A stretch of 64,000 nucleotides of DNA, taken from Puniceicoccales bacterium Verruco_01 (GTDB lineage: Bacteria > Verrucomicrobiota > Verrucomicrobiia > Opitutales > Oceanipulchritudinaceae). Location of the stretch: NCBI GenBank assembly GCA_001604565.1, contig LVBV01000018.1:102458-166457 (forward strand), in the 5' to 3' direction. Both the position numbers and the translations under genes were made by a program. Numbering within the stretch: the first letter of the stretch is position 1; each line of letters opens with the position of its first letter. Positions 9,002-53,423 of the stretch are shown here, piece by piece. The notes below the pieces were generated by a model. The model was not told where the DNA came from, ran no database searches, and saw only the letters and a program-made list of their open reading frames with translations.

Positions 9002-10420
9002 ATGAAAGCTCTCTCCTTTACCGGTCTTGCACTGGCTCTTTTCCTGCCTGCGGCACTCCTTAACGCCAACACCAAACCGGGGTATTTCCTCATGGGCACG
9101 GGCATCTGCACCCACGGGCAACTGGGCGTTCCCGGCACGGACAACGCCTATTTCCCGGTCGAGGTGGCGGAACACGTGACGGCCGTCGCCGCAGGCAACG
9201 CACACGCCGCCTTTCTGACAGAGAATGGCGACCTCTTCGTGATGGGCAGCAACACCTACGGTCAGCTCGGCGACGGCACGAGGATCGAGAGGACCACTCC
9301 GGAGCAGATGGCCGCCGGCGTGGCGACGGTCGCCACGGGCACTTTTCACACCCTCTATATCACCAACGCGGGCGATCTCTATTCCGTGGGACTCAACGAA
9401 AAGGGCCAGCTCGGCGTGGACCTCGGCAAGACGCCAGCGGACGATGTCATCGTCACGACGGACATGCCGCATTTCGTCGCAGCGGACGTGGCTGCGGTTT
9501 CCGGCGGGAACTCGCACACCCTGTATCTGACGACGACGGGCGACCTCTACTCGATGGGTAGCAATTCCTGCGGCCAGCTCGGCTACGGGACGCACGACTA
9601 CAACACGCATTACGCCCCCCAGAAAGTGTGCTCCGGCGTGAAAGCGATTTCCGCGGGCAGCATGCACAGCCTCTACGTGACGACGAGCGGTGACCTCTAT
9701 GCCATGGGCAGCAACACCTACGGTCAGCTCGGCGACGGCACGACGACCGATCGCGCAACCCCGGTCCTAGTCGCTTCGGACGTGGCCGAAATCGCCGCCG
9801 GTTACAATCACAGCCTCTTCATCAAGACGAACGGCGACCTCTACGCCATGGGCAGCAACCTCTCCGGCCAGCTCGGCGACGGCACGAAGGCCAACCGCTC
9901 CACGCCGGTCCGGATCGCCACCAACATCGCCGCCATTTCCGCCGACTACGACCAGAGCATGTATGTGACGACAAGCGGCGACCTCTACACCGCGGGCTTC
10001 AATTTCTACGGCCAGCTCGGCATCGGAAAGACTGCGGAATATAATGTGACGACTCCCGTGCTTGTCGCGGGAGGCGTGAACGCCGTCGCTGCAGGCAACG
10101 GCTTCAGCCTGTATCTGACAGGCGACTGCACGTCGGCCTACTGGCCGAGCGGGGAGCTCGGCGCCAAGTGGGACGCCACGATGGGCTGGATCGACGACAC
10201 CAATTTTCCCTGGGTCTGGAGCTACACCGGAAGCAACTGGTACTACCTCTACGACGCATTGAAGGCCGAGCCCGCGCGCAACGGCTACTGGATCGCCTAC
10301 TACACCCCCGACTTTTCCGACTACGGCTGGGGTTACGTGTGGCCGGGATACGGCTGGTACTGCTTTGCGAGCGACATGAGCTGGACCTGGCTCGGCGTAG
10401 GGGAAAAGCAGCCTGAATAA
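9002..10420 (+). CDS. Secreted RCC1-repeat beta-propeller protein (7 repeats) with aromatic-rich C-terminal module
   Basis: A 472-aa protein with a Sec signal peptide (MKALSFTGLALALFLPAALLNA). I count seven RCC1-type repeats of about 50 residues, each with a core like MGSNTYGQLGDG and an upstream strand like HSLYVTTSGDLYAMG. Seven repeats match one seven-bladed propeller. After the propeller (from about residue 375) comes an 85-90 aa tail very rich in Trp and Tyr (GWIDDTNFPWVWSYTGSNWYYLYD, YGWGYVWPGYGWYCF, each quoted in part). The next gene has the same tail. Probably exported; a surface or binding role is inferred. No enzymatic motif seen. Confidence 0.88.
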   Translation: MKALSFTGLALALFLPAALLNANTKPGYFLMGTGICTHGQLGVPGTDNAYFPVEVAEHVTAVAAGNAHAAFLTENGDLFVMGSNTYGQLGDGTRIERTTPEQMAAGVATVATGTFHTLYITNAGDLYSVGLNEKGQLGVDLGKTPADDVIVTTDMPHFVAADVAAVSGGNSHTLYLTTTGDLYSMGSNSCGQLGYGTHDYNTHYAPQKVCSGVKAISAGSMHSLYVTTSGDLYAMGSNTYGQLGDGTTTDRATPVLVASDVAEIAAGYNHSLFIKTNGDLYAMGSNLSGQLGDGTKANRSTPVRIATNIAAISADYDQSMYVTTSGDLYTAGFNFYGQLGIGKTAEYNVTTPVLVAGGVNAVAAGNGFSLYLTGDCTSAYWPSGELGAKWDATMGWIDDTNFPWVWSYTGSNWYYLYDALKAEPARNGYWIAYYTPDFSDYGWGYVWPGYGWYCFASDMSWTWLGVGEKQPE

Positions 10421-10463
10421 GCGCGTCCGAAACGCAGCCGCACGGAAAAAGAACCCCTTCGAG

Positions 10464-10491
10464 GGAACAGGAACGGCATGATTGCTGTTCC
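10464..10491 (+). terminator. Weak hairpin between the two RCC1 genes
   Basis: GGAACAG pairs with CTGTTCC across a 14-nt loop, 44 nt after the first RCC1 gene. There is no convincing T-run directly after it, so termination is doubtful. Confidence 0.25.
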
Positions 10492-10591
10492 AATCCTATT
10501 GCCATTTTTCCGCGCGCCCCCGTTTTCCCTTGCGCCCGGTGCCCCCTCATCGAATACCATTGTGCCCGTGTCTCTCAAAGCCCGTACGAAC

Positions 10592-13156
10592 ATGAAATCT
10601 AGTCCCGCCTCGTTTGCCCACCGCGTCCGCGGCTCCCTGCCCGTCCTGATCGCCGCAACGGCGATCATGCCGCTCTTCGCCTTTTCGGCCCGCGCCGCAA
10701 CGACGCGGCTGATGGGCACGGGTTCAACCTACGACGGCCAGCTCGGCATCGGCGTCATCGGCGACTTTTCGACACCGGAACACGTGGCCGACAATGTGAT
10801 GTCCGTCGCCGCGGGCAACGGCTTCACGTATTTCATCACCACCTCGAACGATCTATATACAATGGGATCGAACGTGGTAGGTCAGCTCGGCGACAGGACT
10901 TACCAAGACCGCGACTACGCGGAGAAACTCGCCTATTCCGTCGCCTCCGCCTCGGCGGGAACCTATCACGGTTTCTTCGTCACGACATGGGGCGATCTCT
11001 ACGGCATGGGCGACAATTATTATGGCGAGCTCGGGATTGACCTCGGCACGGACGATGGCGAACCGATTCAGAACATTCCCGATTTCCGGATCATCTCGCA
11101 CGACGTGGCACAGGCCGTGGCCGCGGACGGTTTCTCCCTGTTCATCACAACGAGCGGCGACCTCTACGGCATGGGCTACAACGGCGACGGCCAGCTCGGT
11201 GTCGATCTCGGCACGGACGGCGGCGGCTCGCCGGTCTTCTGCGCCTTTTCCCCTGTGAAAATCGCCTCGAACGTGGCGTCGGCGTCGGCGGCGGGCGGCC
11301 AGTCGATCTACCTGACCGAGGCCGGCGACGTGTATGTGACGGGCGACAATTCCTTCGGCCAGCTCGGAAACGGTTCCACCACGGCGACCAAGATTCCCGT
11401 CAAGGCGGCCTCCGGCGCGAAGGCTGTGGCGGCGGGTCACGGCAACCTGTATTACCTTGCCACTTCCGGCGATCTCTACGGCGCGGGCGACAATCAGTAC
11501 GGCCAGCTCGGCGTGACGCTCGCAGGCGGGGCCACGCGCAGCACCTCCTTTGTCCACATCGCCTCCGGCGTCACAAAGATGCAGGCCGGAGAGGGACATC
11601 TTCTCTACCTCACCACGGCAGGCGACCTTTACGCGACCGGACTCAACTCCAGCGGCCAGCTTGGCGACGGTTCGCAGGTGAACCGCCCCACGCCCGTACG
11701 GGTGGCTCAGAACGTAGCCGACATGGCGGCGGGCGCGTTCCATTCCCTTTACCTGAATGACGAGGGCGTCCTCTACGCCTTCGGCGAAAACGAGACCGGT
11801 GCTCTCGGCATCGAATCCGCCCTGTACAAGCGCCGCACGCCCGTGGACATCGCGGCCTTCACTGTCACCTTCCCGCATTGCGCCTACAAGACGAATCTGT
11901 ACCTCAGGGACAACACTCTCTACGGATTCGGCGACAACAACTACGGCCAGCTCGGCGACGGCACCACGAGCGATCGCGCGACGCCGGTCACCATCGCCGC
12001 GAATGTCACGGCGGCGGCGTCGGGCCTCTGGCACACCCTGTATGTGACCAGTTCCGGCGACCTCTACGCGGTGGGCGACAATTCGCGCGGCCAGCTCGGC
12101 GACGGCACCACCACCCAGCGCAAGAGCCCCGTCAAGGTGGCCTCCGGTGTTTCCAAGGTGGCCACGGGCGGACGCTCCAGCTACTATATCACGACTTCGG
12201 GTGACCTCTACGCGATGGGCGACAACCAGTACGGTCAGCTCGGTGCGGCGGTTTCGACCAATTCCGGTCTTTACACGGCAACCCCGGTCAAGGTGACGGG
12301 CTCCGTCTCGGCGGTTGCCGCCGGGCGCAACTTCGCGGCCTACCTCACCACCTCGGGCGACCTCTACACGATGGGCGACAACCAGTACGGTCAGCTCGGC
12401 GTGGATCTCGGCAAGGATACCGACAAAAACGCCATCGTGAAGACCACCACGCCCGTCAAGGCCGCGAGTTCCGTCTCGGCGATTTCGGCGGGCTGGTATC
12501 ACCTGCTCTACCTCACAAGCGCCGGCGATCTCTACTCCGTCGGCTCCAATCAGTTCGGTCAGCTCGGCGTGATCCTACAGGACAACTCGAAAGACGGCGA
12601 CACCGGCGAGGTCTATCCTTGGTACACCGTCACCCCGCAGAAGGTGGCCAGTTCCGTCACAAAGATTTCCGCGGGCACCACGCATAGTTGCTACCTGACA
12701 AGCGCGGGCGTGCTCTACGGCATGGGTCAGGGCCGCGACGGACGCCTCGGCGTTTCCGGCGAGGCGTCGCACACCACCCCCGTCCTCATCGCCGAAAGCG
12801 TGAGCGACGTTGGCGCGGGCTACAACACCACCCTCTTCCTTACCACTGCGACGGATGTCTCGGCCTTCTGGCCGCGTTCCAAGAAGGGCGCCAAGTACGA
12901 CATCACCTTCGGCTGGATCGACGACACCTACTTCCCCTGGTTCTGGAACTACCAGAACGGGAACTGGTTCTACCTCTACGGCGGGACGAGCGTCATCCCC
13001 GACCTCAACAATTACTGGGTGGCCTACTACCTGCCGAACTTCTCCAGCTACGGATGGGGCTACGTCTATCCGAACATCGGCTGGTGGTGCTTCGACAAGG
13101 ACATGAAGGGCCGCTTCCTCTGGCGCACCGACAAGATCGTCACAAGCAGCAACTAA
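10592..13156 (+). CDS. Secreted RCC1-repeat protein (14 repeats) with aromatic-rich C-terminal module
   Basis: Paralogue of the preceding gene, 854 aa from the ATG at 10592. I chose that start over 10478 because it gives a clean signal peptide (basic HRVRG, then SLPVLIAATAIMPLFAF and an ARA cleavage site). I count fourteen RCC1 cores, for example MGSNVVGQLGD, MGDNYYGELGI, FGENETGALGI and MGQGRDGRLGV. That is exactly twice the number in the neighbour and is consistent with two seven-bladed propellers in tandem. The last ~85 residues repeat the Trp/Tyr-rich tail (GWIDDTYFPWFWNYQNGNWF, YGWGYVYPNIGWWCF). Probably exported. The partner is unknown. Confidence 0.88.
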   Translation: MKSSPASFAHRVRGSLPVLIAATAIMPLFAFSARAATTRLMGTGSTYDGQLGIGVIGDFSTPEHVADNVMSVAAGNGFTYFITTSNDLYTMGSNVVGQLGDRTYQDRDYAEKLAYSVASASAGTYHGFFVTTWGDLYGMGDNYYGELGIDLGTDDGEPIQNIPDFRIISHDVAQAVAADGFSLFITTSGDLYGMGYNGDGQLGVDLGTDGGGSPVFCAFSPVKIASNVASASAAGGQSIYLTEAGDVYVTGDNSFGQLGNGSTTATKIPVKAASGAKAVAAGHGNLYYLATSGDLYGAGDNQYGQLGVTLAGGATRSTSFVHIASGVTKMQAGEGHLLYLTTAGDLYATGLNSSGQLGDGSQVNRPTPVRVAQNVADMAAGAFHSLYLNDEGVLYAFGENETGALGIESALYKRRTPVDIAAFTVTFPHCAYKTNLYLRDNTLYGFGDNNYGQLGDGTTSDRATPVTIAANVTAAASGLWHTLYVTSSGDLYAVGDNSRGQLGDGTTTQRKSPVKVASGVSKVATGGRSSYYITTSGDLYAMGDNQYGQLGAAVSTNSGLYTATPVKVTGSVSAVAAGRNFAAYLTTSGDLYTMGDNQYGQLGVDLGKDTDKNAIVKTTTPVKAASSVSAISAGWYHLLYLTSAGDLYSVGSNQFGQLGVILQDNSKDGDTGEVYPWYTVTPQKVASSVTKISAGTTHSCYLTSAGVLYGMGQGRDGRLGVSGEASHTTPVLIAESVSDVGAGYNTTLFLTTATDVSAFWPRSKKGAKYDITFGWIDDTYFPWFWNYQNGNWFYLYGGTSVIPDLNNYWVAYYLPNFSSYGWGYVYPNIGWWCFDKDMKGRFLWRTDKIVTSSN

Positions 13157-35800: not shown

Positions 35801-38800
35801 GCCCTGATGGGGCCGCGGGGGTTGGCCCGCGGATGGAGGTGAGCAGGCTAGCAAGGCCCTCCATTTTCTCCTCGCTTCAATGGGGCCGCGGGGGTTGGCC
35901 CGCGGATGGACGACTCAAACTCCATAAGCGTCCCAACAAAGGGGCCGCTTCAATGGGGCCGCGGGGGTTGGCCCGCGGATGGAGGCGTTCAAGAGGTTCG
36001 CCCGCGAAGAGCTGTCGCCGCTTCAATGGGGCCGCGGGGGTTGGCCCGCGGATGGTCGCTCGAAGCCCCACGTCTACTACGTGCTCACAGGGCTTCAATG
36101 GGGCCGCGGGGGTTGGCCCGCGGATGGGCCACGAAGGCGGTCAATCGCCTGAAACAGGTCGCGGCTTCAATGGGGCCGCGGGGGTTTGCCCGCGGATGGC
36201 GCCGCTCTCGTCGCAGATCGGCAATCTGGCGCAGGCGCTTCAATGGGGCCGCGGGGGTTTGCCCGCGGATGGCGGTGTGAAAGCTGAGGCGATCCCTTGG
36301 CCGATCCCGATGCTTCAATGGGGCCGCGGGGGTTTGCCCGCGGATGGTTGTGTTTACCTAGAACAGGCAAAGCAAGAACAAATGCTTCAATGGGGCCGCG
36401 GGGGTTTGCCCGCGGATGGTCGACATCACTACTATCGACCATTTTTTGTTTTGTGTGCTTCAATGGGGCCGCGGGGGTTTGCCCGCGGATGGTTATTCCA
36501 TCGCGTCCGTGATTAGTGAATGCTGATAGTGCTTCAATGGGGCCGCGGGGGTTTGCCCGCGGATGGGAGGGCATCCGCCGTGTTCTGTGCGTTGTTGGCC
36601 GCCATGCTTCAATGGGGCCGCGGGGGTTTGCCCGCGGATGGGTGCATGTCAGAACCTAAGATTGCATCGAGCACGCCGCGCTTCAATGGGGCCGCGGGGG
36701 TTTGCCCGCGGATGGCATTCTCCGGAACGTTCGTCAGGCTCGTGCAGCCACGCTTCAATGGGGCCGCGGGGGTTTGCCCGCGGATGGGACGATCTGATCG
36801 GGCAGAACTTTAGCCCCTCCGATGCTTCAATGGGGCCGCGGGGGTTTGCCCGCGGATGGAAACAGATCGGCAATCTCGCTTCGGCGAATGCCGATCTGCT
36901 TCAATGGGGCCGCGGGGGTTTGCCCGCGGATGGTACCAGGGGGCTGAGCGCGTGCTGGCGCAAGTGGCGCGCTTCAATGGGGCCGCGGGGGTTTGCCCGC
37001 GGATGGCGCGATGGCGTGAAAATCCTTACTCCGTTCTGGCAGGCTTCAATGGGGCCGCGGGGGTTTGCCCGCGGATGGTGCCGCGATGGCGTGAAAATCC
37101 TTACTCCGTTCTGGCGGGCTTCAATGGGGCCGCGGGGGTTTGCCCGCGGATGGAGGCTGCGCTTGGTGTCCTTGTCCCCGCCGTCCGAGTAGCTTCAATG
37201 GGGCCGCGGGGGTTTGCCCGCGGATGGCATTTCTAGCGGGTCGGAAAGAAAAAATGCGCCCGCAGCTTCAATGGGGCCGCGGGGGTTTGCCCGCGGATGG
37301 TTTATCCTGGGCATATCTTAGTGGGGTTGGGTTATTGCTTCAATGGGGCCGCGGGGGTTTGCCCGCGGATGGCACAAGGGCGACAAGGGGGGATTCATCG
37401 AGACAGAAGAGCTTCAATGGGGCCGCGGGGGTTTGCCCGCGGATGGCGGGATGACGCCTTTTATGGCGCCGCCAAGCGAGGTGCTTCAATGGGGCCGCGG
37501 GGGTTTGCCCGCGGATGGTCCATCGGCGGAACGACCCATGCCATCGATTCCACGGTGCTTCAATGGGGCCGCGGGGGTTTGCCCGCGGATGGGTAATATT
37601 TGGCACCACTTCGGCACCACTCAACCGAGCTTCAATGGGGCCGCGGGGGTTTGCCCGCGGATGGTTTGCTGCCTATCCAGAGCATGAACCACCATTGCAG
37701 GCTTCAATGGGGCCGCGGGGGTTTGCCCGCGGATGGAAGATCAACCGCTTTCTTGCCGTCACCTGTAACTGTGCTTCAATGGGGCCGCGGGGGTTTGCCC
37801 GCGGATGGCTGAATGAGGCCGACGCGCTTCGCAAGGAGAACGAGGCTTCAATGGGGCCGCGGGGGTTTGCCCGCGGATGGTCCAAGAAAATCGCCTCATT
37901 CCGCAGTTTTGTGTGCGAGGCTTCAATGGGGCCGCGGGGGTTTGCCCGCGGATGGCGATTCCTGCAACAGAAACAGTCGATTCCTGCAACAGCTTCAATG
38001 GGGCCGCGGGGGTTTGCCCGCGGATGGCACGGTCACCGGCATCCTTCCCGAGGCCGAGGCGATCGGCTTCAATGGGGCCGCGGGGGTTTGCCCGCGGATG
38101 GACAGGTCCGCAGGATGCGGACGCTCTTGCGCTACGCTGCTTCAATGGGGCCGCGGGGGTTTGCCCGCGGATGGACCGGTCAGGAATCGACATATCCGGA
38201 TTATTATTCTCGTGCTTCAATGGGGCCGCGGGGGTTTGCCCGCGGATGGCTCGTTGGGTGCTCCTGACTCTGACGGTTGATCCAAAGCTTCAATGGGGCC
38301 GCGGGGGTTTGCCCGCGGATGGCATACTCAATACCATACGGAATGCACCATATAGCCAGCTTCAATGGGGCCGCGGGGGTTTGCCCGCGGATGGAGGCAA
38401 CTCTGACCGCTTGAGCTTCCGCAAGTTGACAATGCTTCAATGGGGCCGCGGGGGTTTGCCCGCGGATGGTCTGTTAATACGTCACACTTCTTCGCAGCCA
38501 TACTCGGCTTCAATGGGGCCGCGGGGGTTTGCCCGCGGATGGCATGAATATTACGGCTTGCCCGATTGGGTTTTAGACCGGCTTCAATGGGGCCGCGGGG
38601 GTTTGCCCGCGGATGGCCAATGAAAGTGTAAGCGCCGGTTGTGGTGTTATAAGCTTCAATGGGGCCGCGGGGGTTTGCCCGCGGATGGTCGCAGGCTTGA
38701 GACGAGGGAGTGGGAAGCGAAAGGCTTCAATGGGGCCGCGGGGGTTTGCCCGCGGATGGGTCAGATACTACGAACTTGAAGATCTCTGCTGGTTGCTTCA

Positions 38801-41800
38801 ATGGGGCCGCGGGGGTTTGCCCGCGGATGGCGGATATGGAAGCATAAGAAACAGCGCCATAGGGTCGGGCTTCAATGGGGCCGCGGGGGTTTGCCCGCGG
38901 ATGGCCTCAGGATCAGTGCCATCACCTTCATTTTTTGACCAAGCTTCAATGGGGCCGCGGGGGTTTGCCCGCGGATGGTATGTCGTTCTAGCGACGTGCC
39001 TGTTTTCCGGTTGTCGCTTCAATGGGGCCGCGGGGGTTTGCCCGCGGATGGGACAGAATTGGCGTCATAGTTGTATGTAGTCCCTGTGCTTCAATGGGGC
39101 CGCGGGGGTTTGCCCGCGGATGGAGGATTTGACGTTGCCGCGCTCAAGAAGATTTTCACCGCTTCAATGGGGCCGCGGGGGTTTGCCCGCGGATGGTCCA
39201 ATGAGGACGCACGGACTGTAAAAACTCAGCGGCTTCAATGGGGCCGCGGGGGTTTGCCCGCGGATGGAAAACGCCTGCGGTTGGATTCGCCAGCAATGCA
39301 CCGCTTCAATGGGGCCGCGGGGGTTTGCCCGCGGATGGTACATGGCCCGTCGTGGACAGGTCAGATGGTTTCCAAGAGCTTCAATGGGGCCGCGGGGGTT
39401 TGCCCGCGGATGGGCCGAGAAGGTGGCGCAGGCGGAGGCCAAGCTCGAGCTTCAATGGGGCCGCGGGGGTTTGCCCGCGGATGGGCGGCGAATCCAGGGC
39501 TGGCGGAACTCGGGCCGGTCTAGCTTCAATGGGGCCGCGGGGGTTTGCCCGCGGATGGCTACTGCGCCGGATTCAGCCTCGCAGATCGAATAATTGCTTC
39601 AATGGGGCCGCGGGGGTTTGCCCGCGGATGGGCGTTCGCGGACCGGGAATCGAGAATACGACATGGCGGCTTCAATGGGGCCGCGGGGGTTTGCCCGCGG
39701 ATGGGCTTTCTGCAACAGCCACAAGGGCCAAGGGCAAGCCCGGCTTCAATGGGGCCGCGGGGGTTTGCCCGCGGATGGCCGCCTTCTTCGCGTTGTGACG
39801 CGCGAAGAGGACGCCGCTTCAATGGGGCCGCGGGGGTTTGCCCGCGGATGGCTGGTGGGCATGGAAGATCCGCACCGGCATCCGAGAGCGGGCTTCAATG
39901 GGGCCGCGGGGGTTTGCCCGCGGATGGGCGTTTTGACACGCTTGCTTTTTCGCAAGCCTTGTCGCTTCAATGGGGCCGCGGGGGTTTGCCCGCGGATGGC
40001 CGCGATGGATTCCGTAACCTTGACAAGAACCTGACGGCTTCAATGGGGCCGCGGGGGTTTGCCCGCGGATGGGGGTGGATCGGTCCCGGGTGAAGAAGAA
40101 ATCAATAAGGCTTCAATGGGGCCGCGGGGGTTTGCCCGCGGATGGCCGTCCTGCTCCGCCAACAACCACCGACGAGGGCAGCTTCAATGGGGCCGCGGGG
40201 GTTTGCCCGCGGATGGCGTGTGCGTTGGGCTTGTCCCGGTCGTGGAGTCGATATGCTTCAATGGGGCCGCGGGGGTTTGCCCGCGGATGGGCGGAAGATA
40301 TTACTTTCCGCCAGCTCATCAACACGCTTCAATGGGGCCGCGGGGGTTTGCCCGCGGATGGCTCGTTAAGCACCATGCTGACGCACGCGCTTTCGCGGCT
40401 TCAATGGGGCCGCGGGGGTTTGCCCGCGGATGGACCGACGGCTTTCGCACGTCGAAGCGCGCGTACTGAGCTTCAATGGGGCCGCGGGGGTTTGCCCGCG
40501 GATGGTGCGTTGGCAATCGACGACGAAAAGCTGGCGAACTACCTTCAATGGGGCCGCGGGGGTTTGCCCGCGGATGGCCGCGACTCATCGCCTCCATTGC
40601 GGAACGGTATTCGCCTTCAATGGGGCCGCGGGGGTTTGCCCGCGGATGGTTGGAACATCGGGAAAGACCCGTTGCATCGGTACCGCCTTCAATGGGGCCG
40701 CGGGGGTTTGCCCGCGGATGGACGGCGGCTGGAGCGGCGGGCGAACAGGATTTTGACCCTTCAATGGGGCCGCGGGGGTTTGCCCGCGGATGGGAAGCGA
40801 TGTCGTGTATGACCACCACGCGACGACCGGACCTTCAATGGGGCCGCGGGGGTTTGCCCGCGGATGGATGAACACATTTTTCCTTGCGCGCGCGGGGCAG
40901 TATCCCTTCAATGGGGCCGCGGGGGTTTGCCCGCGGATGGTCGCGTCAGGCGCTTGTCGATGTCGCGGGTCTGCCCGCCTTCAATGGGGCCGCGGGGGTT
41001 TGCCCGCGGATGGATGCCTCGTCTCTCCCACGCCCGGAAAACAGTCTCTTCCTTCAATGGGGCCGCGGGGGTTTGCCCGCGGATGGGACGGCACGGGCTG
41101 CAGCGGCGGGGGGAAACTCGCGTCGTTCCTTCAATGGGGCCGCGGGGGTTTGCCCGCGGATGGATTCGACGATTGAAAAGGGCCGCCTGCTTGTCCGCAA
41201 GCCTTCAATGGGGCCGCGGGGGTTTGCCCGCGGATGGCGTATCGGCGTCATGGCGCACGGGGTGTGCCGCGATCCTTCAATGGGGCCGCGGGGGTTTGCC
41301 CGCGGATGGACGAACCCATGAGCACCAAAGAAGCAGCTGAAAAGATCCTTCAATGGGGCCGCGGGGGTTTGCCCGCGGATGGCTTACAAGATCGGACATT
41401 TCGCGCAGAAAGTCAACACCCTTCAATGGGGCCGCGGGGGTTTGCCCGCGGATGGCCCGCACCCCCTTCCTCTGATGCTGTCTCCCGGACCCTTCAATGG
41501 GGCCGCGGGGGTTTGCCCGCGGATGGGTAAAAAGCTAAAGGGTTATGATGATGTATATATCCCTTCAATGGGGCCGCGGGGGTTTGCCCGCGGATGGCTG
41601 CCTAGCTAGAACTAATCTACAAATATATAGCTTCCTTCAATGGGGCCGCGGGGGTTTGCCCGCGGATGGTTACCGTTACGGGGCTTGGCAAGTTGCCCGT
41701 GGGGGCCTTCAATGGGGCCGCGGGGGTTTGCCCGCGGATGGGCTCGGCGTTACAGCGACGCCGTTTCGCTCTGACAACCTTCAATGGGGCCGCGGGGGTT

Positions 41801-42753
41801 TGCCCGCGGATGGGCGTAGCCGGTGGCTCCTCCATTCCGGCTTGCTCCCCTTCAATGGGGCCGCGGGGGTTTGCCCGCGGATGGCACTAAAGGCAATGGT
41901 AAGGGTTGTAAGTAAAGCAACCTTCAATGGGGCCGCGGGGGTTTGCCCGCGGATGGGGGCGGAACCTTGTCGCATTGGACAAGGTTATCGACCTTCAATG
42001 GGGCCGCGGGGGTTTGCCCGCGGATGGCTGTGCTATCATGGCAGGTATAGCCTTATAGTGATAATCCTTCAATGGGGCCGCGGGGGTTTGCCCGCGGATG
42101 GACCAATAACCCGTGGACTTCCACCAAGAAACCAACATCCTTCAATGGGGCCGCGGGGGTTTGCCCGCGGATGGAATAATTCAGATTCCGAATATTCTTT
42201 AGTAGAATACCTTCAATGGGGCCGCGGGGGTTTGCCCGCGGATGGCAAGACGAAATGTCCGGTAGAATTCGACGGCAAGACCTTCAATGGGGCCGCGGGG
42301 GTTTGCCCGCGGATGGGTGTTCGTCAGTCTGCCTCTTGATAGGGAGAAGGAGTTCCTTCAATGGGGCCGCGGGGGTTTGCCCGCGGATGGTCACCGATGG
42401 TCTGCGCGTATTCTGTCCGCCATTCCCCTTCAATGGGGCCGCGGGGGTTTGCCCGCGGATGGATCGCGGAAGCCGGATAGATCAAGCATCATGTCAGCCC
42501 CCTTCAATGGGGCCGCGGGGGTTTGCCCGCGGATGGGCGATACGCGGTCGGAGTGCCAAAGCGGTCGTATGCCTTCAATGGGGCCGCGGGGGTTTGCCCG
42601 CGGATGGATCTAACAGACCGCACCTCCCGGTTTCCCTGCGTCCGCCTTCAATGGGGCCGCGGGGGTTTGCCCGCGGATGGGGATTGACTTCCTTCTCACT
42701 GGTTTTGTATCGCAAGGCCTTCAATGGGGCCGCGGGGGTTTGCCCGCGGATGG
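35801..42753 (-). CRISPR. Type I-G CRISPR array, about 96 repeats of 36 nt and 95 spacers
   Basis: By hand I count 96 repeats starting every 71-75 nt, with spacers of about 34-39 nt. The crRNA sense is the minus strand: read that way each repeat ends in the type I-like handle ATTGAAGC or ATTGAAGG, and contains the stem CCGCGGG...CCCGCGG. The leader therefore lies on the right, next to cas2. The leftmost repeat (35801-35836) is degenerate at its handle end, as expected for the oldest repeat. Repeats 1-5 carry a loop variant (TTGG instead of TTTG on the plus strand). Repeats 2-65 begin with G and 66-96 with C on the plus strand. Spacers vary widely in GC content. Confidence 0.99.
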
Positions 42754-43059
42754 TCCGCGCTCGCAAGCTGTTGTTGCAGAGAGTCCTGCGCTGGCGATTG
42801 CGAGTGCGGGCGTGAAGAGCGTGGTTTTGATGAGGAGAACTGTCACAGAATCTGTCGGCGTGGTTCGGTAGTATTTTACAGTCAGACACATCGAGAGCGG
42901 GTTGGCTTTGGCGCATCACCGCCGCGCTCGCGTGCCGTGTGCTGTCAAAGACCGTTCGCGCCAGTGAATGCAATATAACCAGTCGCCAGTTTCAACACAA
43001 CCTTGTTTCGGTCACCGGGCATCCATCACAAATCGGCATCCGGCCATGACAAGATCGAT
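42754..43059 (-). promoter_or_regulatory. CRISPR leader
   Basis: The 306 nt between the cas2 stop and the first (newest) repeat. It is less GC-rich than its surroundings. An AT-rich stretch (TGTAAAATAC on the minus strand, near 42870) could supply a -10 about 120 nt from the first repeat. A 14-nt string at 42946-42959 recurs upstream of cas3. Leader identity is inferred from position and repeat polarity. Confidence 0.75.
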
Positions 43060-43350
43060 TCACAGCACGAAACACGGAACCTCCACCTTGGCGTATTCCT
43101 GCCCGAGGGCGATGATGCGCCTCTCGCCACGCGTGTGACTCGGCCCCAGTTCGATGAAGAGGATCTGATCCTCGCTCCGGTCGATCAACTCAACGAGCCG
43201 GTGCTCCAGCTCCAGACGTTCGCGCTCGGTGAGATCGCACTCGAAGACCGAGTACTGCAAGTGCACCCCGTAATCCTTGCACGCGCGGTGCACGCGCCGC
43301 AGCCGCTTGGGATCACACACATCGTAGCTCACAATGTAGTTGGTTCGCAT
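43060..43350 (-). CDS. cas2: CRISPR-associated endoribonuclease/adaptation protein Cas2
   Basis: Small ferredoxin-fold partner of Cas1 in the spacer integration complex, 96 aa. The N-terminus RTNYIVSYDVCDPKRLRRVH carries the conserved aspartate after the first strand. VHLQYSVFECDLTERERLEL is the second family block. I start it at the ATG at 43350 (MRTNYIVSYDV), preceded by GGTGGAG, and not at 43407. Last gene of the cas operon before the leader. Confidence 0.96.
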   Translation of the reverse strand: MRTNYIVSYDVCDPKRLRRVHRACKDYGVHLQYSVFECDLTERERLELEHRLVELIDRSEDQILFIELGPSHTRGERRIIALGQEYAKVEVPCFVL

Positions 43351-43430: not shown

Positions 43431-45278
43431 TCAGCGTGTCGTGAACGGCACATACTGCTGGATCTCGCCCCCGAGCACCCGCGCCAGAAGGCGGAATTGC
43501 AGCTCCAACGCACGCCGGTAACTCAGCTTGTAATCGAACACCGGATGGTTGACCGTCGCCGCCATGCGCTGCTCGTATGCCATGAAGAAGGCCCGCCGCC
43601 CGTTCGCCGAAAGTGACACCGAATCGCCCGCTCGCACGAAATCCCCTTCGTTCACGCGCCCGTTGTTGATGAGCGAAATCACAATCGAGTCCACAATGAT
43701 GGCGCGGAATTCCTCCATCACGTCCAGCGCCAGTGCCGGACGCCCGAAGCGAGGCTGATGCAGGAAACCCACGTACGGATCGAACCCGCAGGCATAGGCC
43801 GCCAGAGTGCAGTCCCGCGCCAGCAGGCTGTAGCCGAGCGAGAGCATCGCGTTGACCGGATCGCGCGGAGGGCGGCGGTTGCGCGAATTGAAGTCAAACG
43901 ACAAGCCCTGCTTCGACGAGGGCGCCGCCCTGCCCTCCTCGACATCCTCGTTTCCGCGTGGCTTGAGCATACCCTGAAAATGGCTGAAGTAGGCCAGCGC
44001 CCCCGCGCCCTCGATGCCCATCAGCTCGGTGATGCTCCCAGCGCCGAGCGCCGCCTGCGCCGCAAACTTGAGGCGCTGGAGCACCTCGCGCGGCGGGGCA
44101 ATGTGATTGCGCATCAGGAGAGTGCGCTGGTTGCGCAGTTTGCCGTGCACAAACAGGCGCGCGTGGCTCAGCCGAAGCTCCGCATCCCCCGCCTGACGGA
44201 ACTGCTCGATGCGCGTGAAGACGTTCGTCAGCGAGTGCCCCCGCGTCATCCCGTAGAACCAGCCCCCGAGCGTGAAGTAGGTGATCGGGATGTCCTTCTC
44301 GCACAGCGCCTGCACGGCGGATGCCGAGAGCTGGATGGCGCCGAAGAGGGCCAGATGGTGCAGGTCCATCAGGCGGAATTCCCCAACCGGCGCTTCCTTT
44401 TCCTTTACGACGAGCGTCTCGCCCTTCTTGGAAACATACATGTGCGGGCTCTGCAAATAGAGGGCCTTCGTGTCGTCGCCCGGCGTCAACAGGCGCCGCA
44501 CATCCTCGCCCGGTTTCATCGGGCGGAGCTTGATCTCCGGCCAGCTCATGAACGGCCCGCCGCTCAAGCGGTCCACATCCACGCCCGCCACCTGCATCGG
44601 CAGCTCCATCTGCGCCGCCGGGGCATAGTCCGCCAACTCCTCGCCGCCACCGAGGGCCTCGGCAAGGTAGCGCGTCTCGTCCGGCAAGCAATGGCCCACA
44701 TGCGAACAACGCGGGCACTTCCAAGAGTGATCGAGTGGCGGCGGCAGTTCGCCAAAGCCCACACGGCGCGCCTGCGAAACGTTGTCCAGCACCCACGCCT
44801 CCAGCTCCTCCGTCAGGGCCAAGAGCACGCGCTGGCGGGTCTCGCGATAGTAGATGAACCCGGTGTCGCAGCGGTAGCCGTTGTCGCGCAGGAGCAGCAT
44901 CTGAAGGCCGAGCTGCATGCGGTCGGCCTCCCATATCTCGGGCTGGCCGTCCTCCCCGGCTTTTGGCGCACCCTTCTTGTATTCGACGGGCGAAAGCTCC
45001 GGCGGCTGCCCGTCCCCGCCCGGCTTCACTTCCACAAGATCCAGCTTCGCCGTCACGCCAAGTCGCTCCGAGGCCAGCGCCACCGAGCGCGAATGAATCG
45101 TCTCCTCCACCGCTTCGCCGGGCGCCGCGAGAGCTCCCTTGCCGGAATCAACGCGTTCGTGCTCCTGCTTGCCCTGAATCGTGTCCGCATTATGGACGAA
45201 AATCCCGAGAACAAACTGGTAATAGTAGAGCCGGGGACAGTAAACGAACTCGTTCAGCTGCCGGGCGGGAATGACCAG
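43431..45278 (-). CDS. cas4-cas1: Cas4-Cas1 fusion protein (spacer acquisition); start codon unresolved
   Basis: Fusion of the Cas4 Fe-S exonuclease and the Cas1 integrase, typical of type I-G loci. The Cas4 part shows the first cluster cysteine in QLNEFVYCPRLYYYQFVLG, the nuclease motif VEYKKG, and the last three cysteines in WKCPRCSHVGHC. Cas1 follows, with PITYFTLGGWFYGMTRG and the active-site block DPYVGFLHQPRFGRPALALD. The track starts the ORF at a GTG (45110), which would remove the first cluster cysteine. The frame stays open upstream and encodes the expected N-terminus, but I find no in-frame ATG, GTG or TTG there. The coordinate used (CTG at 45278) is a guess; ACG 45299 and ATT 45272 are alternatives. 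Confidence 0.93.
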   Translation of the reverse strand: MVIPARQLNEFVYCPRLYYYQFVLGIFVHNADTIQGKQEHERVDSGKGALAAPGEAVEETIHSRSVALASERLGVTAKLDLVEVKPGGDGQPPELSPVEYKKGAPKAGEDGQPEIWEADRMQLGLQMLLLRDNGYRCDTGFIYYRETRQRVLLALTEELEAWVLDNVSQARRVGFGELPPPLDHSWKCPRCSHVGHCLPDETRYLAEALGGGEELADYAPAAQMELPMQVAGVDVDRLSGGPFMSWPEIKLRPMKPGEDVRRLLTPGDDTKALYLQSPHMYVSKKGETLVVKEKEAPVGEFRLMDLHHLALFGAIQLSASAVQALCEKDIPITYFTLGGWFYGMTRGHSLTNVFTRIEQFRQAGDAELRLSHARLFVHGKLRNQRTLLMRNHIAPPREVLQRLKFAAQAALGAGSITELMGIEGAGALAYFSHFQGMLKPRGNEDVEEGRAAPSSKQGLSFDFNSRNRRPPRDPVNAMLSLGYSLLARDCTLAAYACGFDPYVGFLHQPRFGRPALALDVMEEFRAIIVDSIVISLINNGRVNEGDFVRAGDSVSLSANGRRAFFMAYEQRMAATVNHPVFDYKLSYRRALELQFRLLARVLGGEIQQYVPFTTR

Positions 45279-45319: not shown

Positions 45320-47080
45320 TTAGGACGGATCGGGCGCGGGGACGAACAGGCCAAGGCCGAAGTGTGCGCCGTATCCGGAGACAATTGGACCGCGCACCTT
45401 CTCGCTGAATGTCAGCCGAAGGCCCGTGCCGAAGGCGTGTGCCGTGCGGCTGCCGTGCGCATCGGGTTCAGCGGCGTTGCCTCGCTCGCGCGTGGTCTTG
45501 AATTGGAGCCAATGAAAAGTCCGACCATCATCGAGAGAAAGAAGCTCCAAATTCTCCAGTGCGGCAATGTGCACCTTGTCCGGATCTATCTGCCCGCCCT
45601 CGCCCATCGCATTGCCGTCCTCGTGCAGCAGGCGCACCAAGTCGTGCTCCGGCGAGCCGACGGGCAGCGTCAGGCCGCCAATTTCGCCCATCTTCGCCTC
45701 GCCGTTCTTGCGCGTCTTGGGGTTGCGCACGGGCACGAAGGGCGTGAGCGAGGTCCACGACTTCGATTCGCCGAACAGCGCACAGCTTTGAAAAAAGTCC
45801 TCCGGCTGCCCTGCGGCGAGCTGCACGAGCTTCGGAGCCAGTTTGCCCGTGCCGAGAAGGCCGCGCAGGTGCGTGGCGAGGCGGCTGTGTTCGGTGAAAG
45901 CCGGATCGTCCAGACGGTTCAGGCAATCGAGCGCACGAAGGGCATCGCGATCAAAGCCGTGGCGGGAGTAAACAGTGATGTATTCAATCGCGCCCGTGCG
46001 GGTGTTGCACTCCGGCAGGATGTAGGCGTGCGAATGCGCGCTGACTCCCGTGCTGTCATTCGGGTTGCGGTCCGCGTCGCAGCCAGTGAAGGCAAAGTTC
46101 CCGGGTGCTCTGGCGCAGAGAAGTTTGTGGATCACGTCCGTGATGAGGAGCGTCTTGGTGATCTGCGGCGGCACGGTGCTGACAAGGGCGAAGCGGACGA
46201 CTTTGGGCTTGTCGCCGACCTTGCCGCGCGCCGCGCCGGGCTTGAAGCGGAAGGGTTCGGCGGGGCGTGCGTACGTCACCCAGCGCGAGCCGGGCGGCTG
46301 GCTCCAACCGGCGGCGCGCAGGGCGCCGGTCTCCGCCTGAAGGGCCACATAGATGCGGGACGGCAGGGCGTTCGCGGTCTTGGCCCTTTTTCCCTTGGCG
46401 GTGGGCGGAGTCTGCGCGGCGAGCCACGCGGCAAAGGCGTCCGGTGACTCCGGTGCCAGCAGGCGCAGGGGCTCGCGGGAGCGTCCGGCGTCGGCATCCG
46501 CGGCAAGCGGCTCGACAAGCTGCTTGCGCGGCACCGCGTCGGGGGAGATTTCCAAAAGATCGGCGTCTGCCAGGGCCTCGGCGCGGCCAAGGTAACTGAG
46601 TGAACGCAGCAGTTCCCGCAGGACGGCATTCTCCCGTTCCTCAAGTTCCACGGGCCAGAAGACGATGAGCGGCCAGAAGGCGAGCATCTCCGCCGAACTG
46701 GCGTTGACTGTGGGAACCGCCGCCCCGTTGGTTCCGGGACCGCCCACATGCACGAAGGCGTCGATCAACTTCACCGGCTTGCCGTTCACGGGCATGTAGT
46801 GCCGCGTGTGTGCGGCGGCGGTGTCCGGACTCACGCGATAGCTCGGGAGCGCGGCGGCGAGCTTTTCGACAAGGGCCGCAAAGGCGTCTTCCGACAGCGC
46901 GGGGGCAAGCTCCGGATGGACGCGTTCGACAAAGCCGCGCTTGTGGTACCATGACGCGATGAGGGCGCGCAGGATGCGCCAGGGCGCGGGCGGCCACTCG
47001 GGCACGGCCTCGTTGGCGTGCGTGCCCCATGCGGAGGAATGATACCGCCCCGAGAGGAAGCGGAAGGCAAGTGCAATCAT
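45320..47080 (-). CDS. csb2: Type I-G Csb2 (GSU0054-like; Cas5-Cas6 fusion)
   Basis: Cascade subunit of type I-G, 586 aa, combining a Cas5-like backbone cap with a Cas6-like crRNA-processing RAMP domain. The N-terminus MIALAFRFLSGRYHSSAWG, then EAVPEWPPAPWRILRALIAS, is the family signature. GLFVPAPDPS is at the C-terminus. Its ATG directly abuts the csb1 stop (TAAATG), so translation is coupled. The stop is 41 nt upstream of the assumed cas4-cas1 start. It probably cuts the pre-crRNA to leave the 8-nt ATTGAAGG/C handle; inferred from the family. Confidence 0.93.
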   Translation of the reverse strand: MIALAFRFLSGRYHSSAWGTHANEAVPEWPPAPWRILRALIASWYHKRGFVERVHPELAPALSEDAFAALVEKLAAALPSYRVSPDTAAAHTRHYMPVNGKPVKLIDAFVHVGGPGTNGAAVPTVNASSAEMLAFWPLIVFWPVELEERENAVLRELLRSLSYLGRAEALADADLLEISPDAVPRKQLVEPLAADADAGRSREPLRLLAPESPDAFAAWLAAQTPPTAKGKRAKTANALPSRIYVALQAETGALRAAGWSQPPGSRWVTYARPAEPFRFKPGAARGKVGDKPKVVRFALVSTVPPQITKTLLITDVIHKLLCARAPGNFAFTGCDADRNPNDSTGVSAHSHAYILPECNTRTGAIEYITVYSRHGFDRDALRALDCLNRLDDPAFTEHSRLATHLRGLLGTGKLAPKLVQLAAGQPEDFFQSCALFGESKSWTSLTPFVPVRNPKTRKNGEAKMGEIGGLTLPVGSPEHDLVRLLHEDGNAMGEGGQIDPDKVHIAALENLELLSLDDGRTFHWLQFKTTRERGNAAEPDAHGSRTAHAFGTGLRLTFSEKVRGPIVSGYGAHFGLGLFVPAPDPS

Positions 47081-50440
<3,360 letters not shown>

Positions 50441-50444
<4 letters not shown>

Positions 50445-53185
50445 ACGGCGGCCTCCTTGTTTTCCGGAGTGTCGGCTTCCTTGGAGGCCCGTGCGTCGGC
50501 GGCGCGCAGGAGCGTTTCCAGCAGGGCGAGGCGGAAGGGGCCGATGCGGTTGCGCAGTTCGAGAGTCATTTCCAGCCACGAGGGCCGGTTGTACGAGCCG
50601 CTGCCCATGCGCATCGGCGACAGGTCGAGGGAAATCGGCTTGTCCACTACGAGCCGCCCGTCCCTGCCGTCCGGCAGTTCCATCGGCAACTGGCCAACGG
50701 CGGGCAGCGTGTCGTTCTGCCAGATTCCGCGCGCGAAAAGCGGTTCGCCACCGGCGGTGTTTGCCGGCACGGCCTCGCCCGGCATGGAGCGGAGGGAGAG
50801 GCGCACCTTGCCGTGGTGAGCGGCGATGAGGTAGGCGACAAGGGCGCGCGTCTGCGGATCCAAATCCTTTGCGGCATCCGAGCCGAGCCAGCCGAGCGCC
50901 GAGGCCAGCTCGTGCCGGAACTGTTTGCGGCAGTAGCGGGCCATCTTCGAGCGGCCCGTATCATCCTTCCCGCTCTTGGCGAGGATGGGCTGACCGGAAA
51001 GGGATGCCGCCGCGATCTCATACACGGCATCCGGCTCAAGCGTCTTTCCGCCTTCGTCCTTATCATATCCCCGCACGGCGAGCTGGAAGACCGGGTGGGC
51101 CTTGCCCGCGTCGTGCCAGATGGCCGCCGTCCGCAGCGCCGCACGCTCCGCATCGCTCACGGCGAGCGTCGCCATCACGCGGGAAGTTTCCACAAGCACC
51201 GCGCGCGTGTGGTCGAAGAGTTCCTGCGCATCCCGTGCGCCGCCGCTGGCGTATTCCTCGCCCGCGTTGTGCTCCCGTCCGAAGGGAATGCCCGTGTCAT
51301 CAGTCGGACGTATCCACTCGGGCATGTTGAGCCGCTCGACCGCGCCACTCTTCTTGTTCTTCTTCTCCTCGCCGACAAGGCCTGTCCAGCCGAGCGCGTC
51401 CTCATAGCCGCCCGCAAGGCGCGGCAGTAGGTACATGCGCCCGGCAACGACATTGTCATATTCGCCCACGCTGCGCCATTCGCCCTCGACGGCGTCCCAG
51501 GTCCATGCGTTGAGGCTCTCCGCCGGCTTTGCGTGCGTCTTGCCGAGCTTCTTGACAAAATCCTTGAAGCGACCGATGCCGACGCGGCAGAGTTCCGCAC
51601 GCACCGGTTGCATGATTTCCTTCGCATTCAGATCGTCCGCCTTCACACCGCGCGGCAATTCGCGCCAGAACACGAACACGTCCGCGCTCTCCGCGTCGGC
51701 ATCGCGCACGTAGCGCGATACGTCGATGTCCGCGCCGGAAAGGTCCGGCGTCGTGTCGAAAAGGTCCAGCAGGTCTTTGCGCCGCAGCACGGGGCGCACT
51801 TTGGTTTCAGGCCTCGCGGTGATGGCGGTCAGGCTCGCGGGCCCGGCGTCGCCCCCCTCGCCCATCCCGACGAGTAGCGATCGGCATTCGGCGATGCGAT
51901 CGGCATCGTACGGCAGGGCAAGTTCCACCGCCGCCTTGTCGTCCGTCTTTTCAAAGTCGATCCAGAAAATGCGCGCGCCCTCGATCCTGCCCCGGCGGTT
52001 GCAACGCCCGGCCCGCTGCACAAAGCTGCTCCACGGGCAGAGTTCCGTGAAGAGAGTCGTGGCGGAGAGGTCGAGCCCCGCCTCCACCACCTGCGTTGCA
52101 ACCACGACGCCCGCAAAGGGAGGCTCGCCCGCAAGCCGTTTCATGAAGGCGTCGCGTTCATTCGGGCGGAAGCGGGAATGCAACAGCAGACACTCGTCCG
52201 CCCGGTTCGCCCCCAGAAGCGCCTTCACGCTCTTGAACACCTCCTGAGCGCGGCTGACTCGGTTCACGATGACAAGCGTCAGACCTGGTTTTTCCGCGTA
52301 AGCCGCGCACACCTTCTCCGCAAGGGCCTTGGCATAGCCGGTTTCGTCCTTCGGGGTCAGCTTCACACCCGCAGCGTGCAGGGCCTTGGCCGCGTTGAGC
52401 CGCGTCGCCACATCTGGGATGGCACGGTCTTCCGGCTCAAGTTCCACATGCTTAACCATCGTCAGCGAATCGCGGAAATCCACCGTAGCCAGCCTGCCCG
52501 CGTCGAGCGTCGCGCTCATCCACCAGGTCGCACACCCCGTACCGCCGATCTTCTCCCTCAAACCCTGAAGCTGCGCGCCCGTCTCAACGCCCACGCCCAT
52601 CAGCTGCACCTCGTCCATCACCCAGAGGCAGTCGTTGTTGAGCAGCGCAAAGTGCATCGGCCAGCGGTGTGAGTTCATCGCATAGCCACGATTCAGCGCG
52701 CGGGAAAGGAGCATGTCCTGGGTGCCGATGATGATGGCCGGAGCTTCCGGCGAAAGATCCCAGTCACGGGAATCCGCGGAGGACTCGACACCGCCCATGA
52801 GGACGATCGGGCCGCGTGCGACAAGCTCCGCAAGCAGCTTCGCCGCACGTTCACCAAGACCCAGCTTACCGTTACGCTGTGCTGCGGAGAGGTTGGCGAG
52901 CCACAGCGCCACATCGGCCTGCGTCTGCTCCACAAGCGAGCGCATCGGCAGGCAGTAAACAAGCCTGCGCGGCCAGAGAGAGGCCGCATCGTCACCCAGC
53001 TGATTCCAGAGCCAGGCAAGCACAACCGCCGCCGTCTTACCCATGCCGGTGGGGACATTGATCCGGCAGTTCGGAACGCTGTGACCAGGGTTCGACTGCA
53101 AAGCGTATGCGAGTTTCTCCTGAAAGGCGAACGGATGTGCGCCGCCATATGCGGCAGAAAAGAAAAACGCATATTCAACGCTCAT
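50441..53185 (-). CDS. cas3: CRISPR-associated helicase-nuclease Cas3 with C-terminal HD domain
   Basis: Effector that unwinds and degrades the target strand, 914 aa. SF2 helicase motifs are in order: NVPTGMGKTAAVVLAW (Walker A), VMDEVQLMG (DExH-type box), MSATLDAGRL (motif III), VVVATQVVEAGLDLSATTLF and FVQRAGRCNRRGR (motifs V/VI). The HD nuclease lies at the C-terminal end (AIWHDAGKAHPVFQ, later AAHHGKVR). The helicase-then-HD order is known for type I-G/I-U. I chose MSVEYAFFFSAAYGGAHPFA at 53185 because a good promoter ends just upstream. First gene of the operon. Confidence 0.96.
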
Positions 53186-53196
53186 CTTGCCAACGT

Positions 53197-53224
53197 ATGA
53201 TACAGGCTCGCGGATTATTGTCAA
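53197..53224 (-). promoter_or_regulatory. Candidate promoter of the cas operon
   Basis: On the minus strand: TTGACA (consensus -35), 16 nt, TATCAT (-10), then 11 nt to the cas3 ATG. No SD precedes the ATG, so the message is near-leaderless. This is the best sigma70-like match I found in the window. Confidence 0.6.
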
Positions 53225-53423
53225 TAACACACCTCATGTTCTGTTGCAGCATGTGGTCACCTCGAACAACTGGTTTCGTAGCGAGAACGAGGATTTGCTG
53301 ATGAATGGCAAGGCTTCGGAAGTGAGTCGTATTGGAGGAAATCCGGCGAACTTCCGAAACGCCGCCGGCCACCGCAAAGACCGTTCGCAGCAGAAATCAA
53401 GGTTGTTCGGGTTGCCCCAATTA

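Follow-up and report, generated by a model that had tools for sequence, protein, structure and literature searches.

An ordered C-to-G switch at the last repeat base of a type I-G CRISPR array very probably descends from one base change in the leader-proximal repeat

Why do the repeats of a single CRISPR array end in C over two thirds of its length and in G on the leader side? The array is located at 35802–42753 of the window, which is the whole stretch of 64,000 nucleotides analysed from Puniceicoccales bacterium Verruco_01. The crRNA sense is on the minus strand and the leader lies at the high-coordinate end. Exact parsing yields 96 repeats and 95 spacers; the repeat has 36 nt and contains a hairpin and an 8-nt handle of the ATTGAAG type. 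Counted from the leader, the repeats of units 0–30 (42718–42753 down to 40542–40577) are identical, and 31 of 31 end in ATTGAAGG. With 31 spacers they constitute the younger block (40542–42753). The older block (35874–40505) comprises units 31–94, from 40470–40505 down to 35874–35909, and its repeats end in ATTGAAGC in 64 of 64 cases. Unit 95, at the trailer end (about 35802–35837), is a degenerate terminal repeat with 10 edits.

The exact parse of the reverse strand revealed no interspersed G and C repeats among the 95 full units. The original prediction of two blocks without mixing is therefore exact: 31 G repeats on the leader side are followed by 64 C repeats and the degenerate terminal repeat. 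The boundary that it had set at 40542 is precisely the −1 base of the oldest G repeat (40542–40577), whose spacer (40506–40541) begins with TAGTTCGCCAGC. If the 31 G repeats were scattered at random among 95, the probability of finding all of them at the leader end would be about 1e-25. The remaining 35 repeat bases are identical across the array except for position 13. A search allowing up to 3 mismatches found no further copies of the repeat in the rest of the genome, and the repeat has no match in IMG/VR.

Judged by its gene content, the locus is a complete type I-G system with a Cas4/1 fusion and not a type I-E system. All genes are encoded on the minus strand in the order cas3g, cas8g, cas7g, cas5-6g, cas4/1 and cas2, directly followed by the leader and then by the array. 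The complete type I-G effector set was matched by PADLOC and Pfam models: cas3g (50441–53230, PADLOC Cas3g; a helicase followed by an HD domain according to Pfam), cas8g or csx17 (48108–50579, PADLOC Cas8g), cas7g or csb1 (47081–48286, PADLOC Cas7g, Pfam PF09617) and cas5-6g or csb2 (45320–47080, PADLOC Cas56g). The adaptation proteins typical of type I-G were found by the same means. The cas4/1 fusion (43431–45110) has its Cas4 domain at about residues 2–151 and its Cas1 domain at about residues 217–548 (PADLOC Cas1g and Cas4 models, Pfam PF01867 and PF01930), and cas2 occupies 43060–43350 (Pfam PF09827). The best-scoring models are those of type I-G, and the locus fails as a member of type I-E.

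All effector genes, Cas4/1 and Cas2 are shared with the type I-G (formerly I-U) systems that carry a Cas4/1 fusion, e.g. those of Geobacter sulfurreducens, Methanosarcina barkeri and Thioalkalivibrio sulfidiphilus. The 36-nt hairpin repeat, the 8-nt handle ATTGAAGC and spacers of 35–41 nt are likewise similar. The window differs from these systems by the G that replaces the usual C at the end of 31 of its 96 repeats. The leader (42754–43059, minus strand) contains the motif GGTCTTTGACA about 200 bases before the first repeat. With at most 1 mismatch this motif is present in 12 of 55 type I-G leader regions, in Verrucomicrobia often at about −180 to −220, and it is possibly a promoter element.

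The direction of the switch can be read from a sister array. Contig G388:C45 (L039; 3,133 bases) was binned with a genome of the same genus. It opens with the last 23 bases of the window leader, which are identical in both, and continues with 43 identical repeats, all 43 of which end in C. It stops 15 bases into a spacer that matches the start of window spacer 37 (CGTCAGGTTCTTGTC, spacer at 40000–40036, repeat at 40037–40072) in 15 of 15 nucleotides. By our own arithmetic, a 15-nt match to the beginning of any of 95 spacers would arise by chance with a probability on the order of 1e-7. None of the other 42 spacers of the contig is present in the window array. The cas operon in the G388 bin shares just 79% identity with that of the window, and its leader differs as well. 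The contig is probably misbinned and may originate from a strain of the window's own species. Such an origin would make it a better and not a worse comparison for the ancestral state. The weak point of the comparison remains that spacer 37 is shared over 15 nt only and that the contig may be misbinned.

In the window lineage, spacer 37 is followed by six units ending in C (36–31) and then by the 31 units ending in G. Judged from the two arrays, C is the ancestral base at −1, since it closes every repeat of G388:C45, which has the leader end and the beginning of spacer 37 in common with the window. G arose in the window lineage, seven acquisitions after spacer 37, and is younger than the split. 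The comparison with arrays of related strains that had been proposed as a check thus places the change in the window lineage.

Each acquisition puts a new spacer at the junction of leader and first repeat, and gap repair yields two copies of the former first repeat. An altered older repeat consequently remains single, whereas an altered first repeat founds a block. Very probably, the younger block is a clonally inherited point change of this kind, i.e. a single substitution in the repeat next to the leader that was copied at every later acquisition. The last base of the leader-proximal repeat would have turned from C to G when spacer 30 (40506–40541) was acquired or shortly thereafter. Duplication of that repeat at each following acquisition would have placed G in each of the 30 repeats added since, and the 64 older ones would have stayed C. 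The perfect order of 31 G and 64 C repeats, the presence of one array only and the C of the sister array all argue for copying of a single change. An inherited variant is recognized by two features, both of which were found: the G runs unbroken from one unit to the leader end with zero exceptions, and the older part shared with a relative (the possibly misbinned G388:C45) has the ancestral base. The original prediction that one change was inherited by the later acquisitions is supported by this unbroken order together with the ancestral C of the sister array. Its description as a dated event in the adaptation machinery is overstated, as the array documents a change of the template but not of the machinery.

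The switch would be a single event at a neutral base. The −1 base is probably neutral because it lies outside the hairpin, because the predicted fold is unaltered by C or G and because the base would lie opposite the N of the PAM, which was reported as TTN in type I-G (PMC9638904). The crRNAs of the two blocks would differ in the last handle base only.

A second, older switch, which the original prediction did not list, is present at repeat position 13 (−24) in the hairpin loop. Repeats 91–94, the four oldest full repeats (35874–36127, GGGCCAACC), and the terminal repeat have C at this position and the 91 younger repeats have A. The change from C to A falls between repeats 91 and 90 (36092–36199). 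This switch follows the same ordered rule and thus provides independent support for forward copying of the first repeat, which accounts for both switches of the array.

Type I-G loci were gathered from the phylum and, with a Cas4/1 profile as the query, from genomes of GTDB, and 57 arrays were parsed. The commonest −1 base is C in 53 of 56 arrays. The survey for blocks covered 48 arrays with at least 7 repeats (1,665 repeats, 1,617 acquisitions). Clean ordered switches were found at 11 positions in 7 of the 48 arrays, or in 6 of 47 if the window array is left out. They are located at −36, −29, −24 (twice), −23, −22 (twice), −21, −11 and −1 (twice), thus mostly at hairpin-loop or end positions, and none is located in the other seven handle bases. 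The occurrence of switches in several type I-G arrays indicates that blocks of this kind arise ordinarily as by-products when repeats are duplicated.

A switch comparable to that of the window is present in L098 from a Bacillota MAG (JAJZZC010000033.1), in which 5 leader-side repeats end in G and all others in C. Subtype, base, C-to-G direction and leader side are the same, but the G block comprises 5 repeats only, and the repeat and the spacers are unrelated. In L213 (G883:C6, 50–740; a Blastocatellia MAG, the genome that also contains L106), the end of a type I-G array has, from the leader side, six C, two G and two C. The old end of L054 has one C and one T, followed by 18 G, its congener L065 has C only, and L054 is probably a further C-to-G case at −1. 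A change from C to G was observed in all three clear cases at −1 as compared with 0 of 6 changes of C elsewhere (Fisher p = 0.012), although the counts are tiny and the statistic is biased, L213 having turned up through a pattern that looks for G. At present numbers, the recurrence is worth a note and no more. Of 384 genomes of the class scanned with a G-specific pattern, only that of the window, G039 (L054) and G072 (in a different register) yielded such arrays.

Two further candidates for a switch at −1 were rejected. L068 is too short an array. The repeat of L058 (G072; array at 10426–11121) starts two bases earlier, and its −1 base belongs to the spacer. This array is similar to type I-G arrays, and no Cas4/1 was matched for it. 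The base after GAAG changes from repeat to repeat in L058, which suggests a duplicated unit that is shifted at both ends, beginning two bases (GTTTCC) and stopping one base before the usual limits.

The blocks would be explained differently by the alternative of the original prediction, a lasting shift in PAM preference or in prespacer trimming. Each spacer would bring its own −1 base, as in type I-E, and the machinery would have switched from C to G. The array alone is compatible with this, as a PAM of TTC before and of TTG after the switch would look alike. In type I-E, and perhaps in type I-C with its TTC PAMs, the last repeat base is PAM-derived (PMC8482600), and it has the same place as the window switch, adjoining the spacer. 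The analogy is nevertheless a misfit, since the locus is of type I-G with a Cas4/1 fusion, and published type I-G data oppose a PAM-derived last base. A match of −1 base and PAM was reported as frequent only for types I-C and I-E (PMC8482600). The Cas4 domain of the Methanosarcina type I-G Cas4/1 was reported to remove the PAM as a whole by cutting directly upstream of it (PMC10504553). In Bifidobacterium lactis, the type I-G repeat ends in G (PMC4521832), yet the PAM is TAT (PMC12915315). Moreover, with a PAM of TTN the −1 base should vary, yet it is constant in long type I-G arrays of 112, 117 and 135 repeats.

The spacers point in the same direction. Mean spacer lengths of the two blocks are 36.5 and 37.0 (p = 0.08), and neither the first and last spacer bases nor the GC content differ significantly between the blocks. 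The neighbouring spacers 77 and 78 (37043–37153) have lengths of 39 and 36 and share 34 identical nt, with one SNP at base 2. They derive from nearly the same protospacer and represent two acquisitions at one PAM. Both start at the same base and differ at their 3' ends, so that the PAM-side end is precise and the far end variable. A single protospacer was found for any type I-G array: spacer 15 of L145 matches a Pseudomonas phage portal gene with the flank TTC. It has C at −1 like the L145 repeat, and this one case (n = 1) fits either reading. A search of the whole window array revealed no protospacer in INPHARED phages and none in PLSDB, where one match of 69.5% is at noise level. Within 273 genomes of the order, including its own, the 95 spacers matched only the array itself and sequences at noise level, and seven spacer-derived patterns gave only chance 18-mers in IMG/VR. 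No phage protospacers were found for spacers of G388:C45, L098, L054 and L119 (part of the set) or for the L128 and L113 arrays, and no plasmid protospacers for L128. Taken together, the finding of no significant difference between the blocks in spacer length, ends and GC and the reported removal of the whole PAM leave a lasting shift in PAM choice or trimming unsupported and very unlikely.

A join of two arrays from different strains at about 40.5 kb, either by assembly or by recombination, is very unlikely. Recombination between repeats is possible in principle, and G388:C45 demonstrates a population variant with a different leader-side half, but the leader side of this sister has C, so that no G-type donor is known. 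The genome contains a single array without a gap, and the overlap at a join within the 36-nt repeat could be no longer than the repeat. A second array in the same genome was rejected as a source of the G repeats, the repeat being found nowhere else in it.

One base change, copied forward in the leader-proximal repeat, remains the preferred reading, and the simplest origin of the first G is a plain replication or fill-in error. The recurrence of C and G at the junction base and the slips observed in vitro make a single misplaced integration a serious rival for this origin. The spacer-side cut would have fallen one base inside the repeat, the prespacer would have kept one PAM base, spacer 30 would have brought the G and later duplications would have copied it. 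C-to-G changes or C/G toggling at exactly −1 are present in the unrelated arrays L098, L213 and probably L054. The target base at −1 differs from that at other repeat positions, which plain mutation would not predict. For type I-G Cas4/1, PAM 'slipping' by one nucleotide and 60–70% accurate spacer-side integration were reported in vitro (PMC10504553). However, two coordinated one-base errors are required, the events are very few, and a TTN PAM should deliver A and T as often as G. In addition, the protospacer search for the founder, spacer 30, gave only chance matches of 18–19 nt (21–24 of 36 identical). A slip at this acquisition is thus a possibility to be taken seriously but the less probable course of events. 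If it took place, a TTG PAM is expected for founder spacers only. Rather unlikely is the wider proposal that the last repeat base of type I-G is a hot spot at which misplaced spacer-side integration occasionally swaps in a PAM base that is then copied forward. If true, arrays would permanently record single integration errors as C/G switches at −1. The recurrence of C to G in unrelated type I-G systems makes it testable whether integration slips or replication errors write repeat changes.

The window switch belongs to a known kind of micro-evolution in arrays and has left an unusually clear record. CRISPR1 of Streptococcus agalactiae likewise has, within one array, repeats that differ from the typical one by a single base (PMC4466440). 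There, the variants are rare (1.5% of repeats) and are apparently not described as forming one long ordered leader-side block, whereas the variant of the window makes up one third of the array and has its polarity set by a sister array. This sister fixes the ancestral base as well as the direction and location of the change. The array is therefore a clean natural record of the leader-proximal repeat serving as the template for each new repeat, and long uniform repeat blocks can be used as phylogenetic anchors within arrays.

Two features outside the array were also observed. No Rfam matches were found in the window. A dispersed element is located just upstream of cas3 (53254–53416, minus strand). 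It is about 165 bp in length, carries long terminal inverted repeats and has 18 matches in the genome, one of only 39 nt, and dozens in two genomes of the same genus, mostly with 81–91% identity. Its consensus is predicted to form one long hairpin (−87 or −98 kcal/mol, depending on the strand), with compensatory changes in 4 of 48 predicted pairs. The element is either MITE-like or a structured element. At 9002–10420 and 10478–13156 (plus strand), two adjoining large proteins of RCC1-like repeats are encoded, with a 144-bp tandem repeat at 9665–10021.
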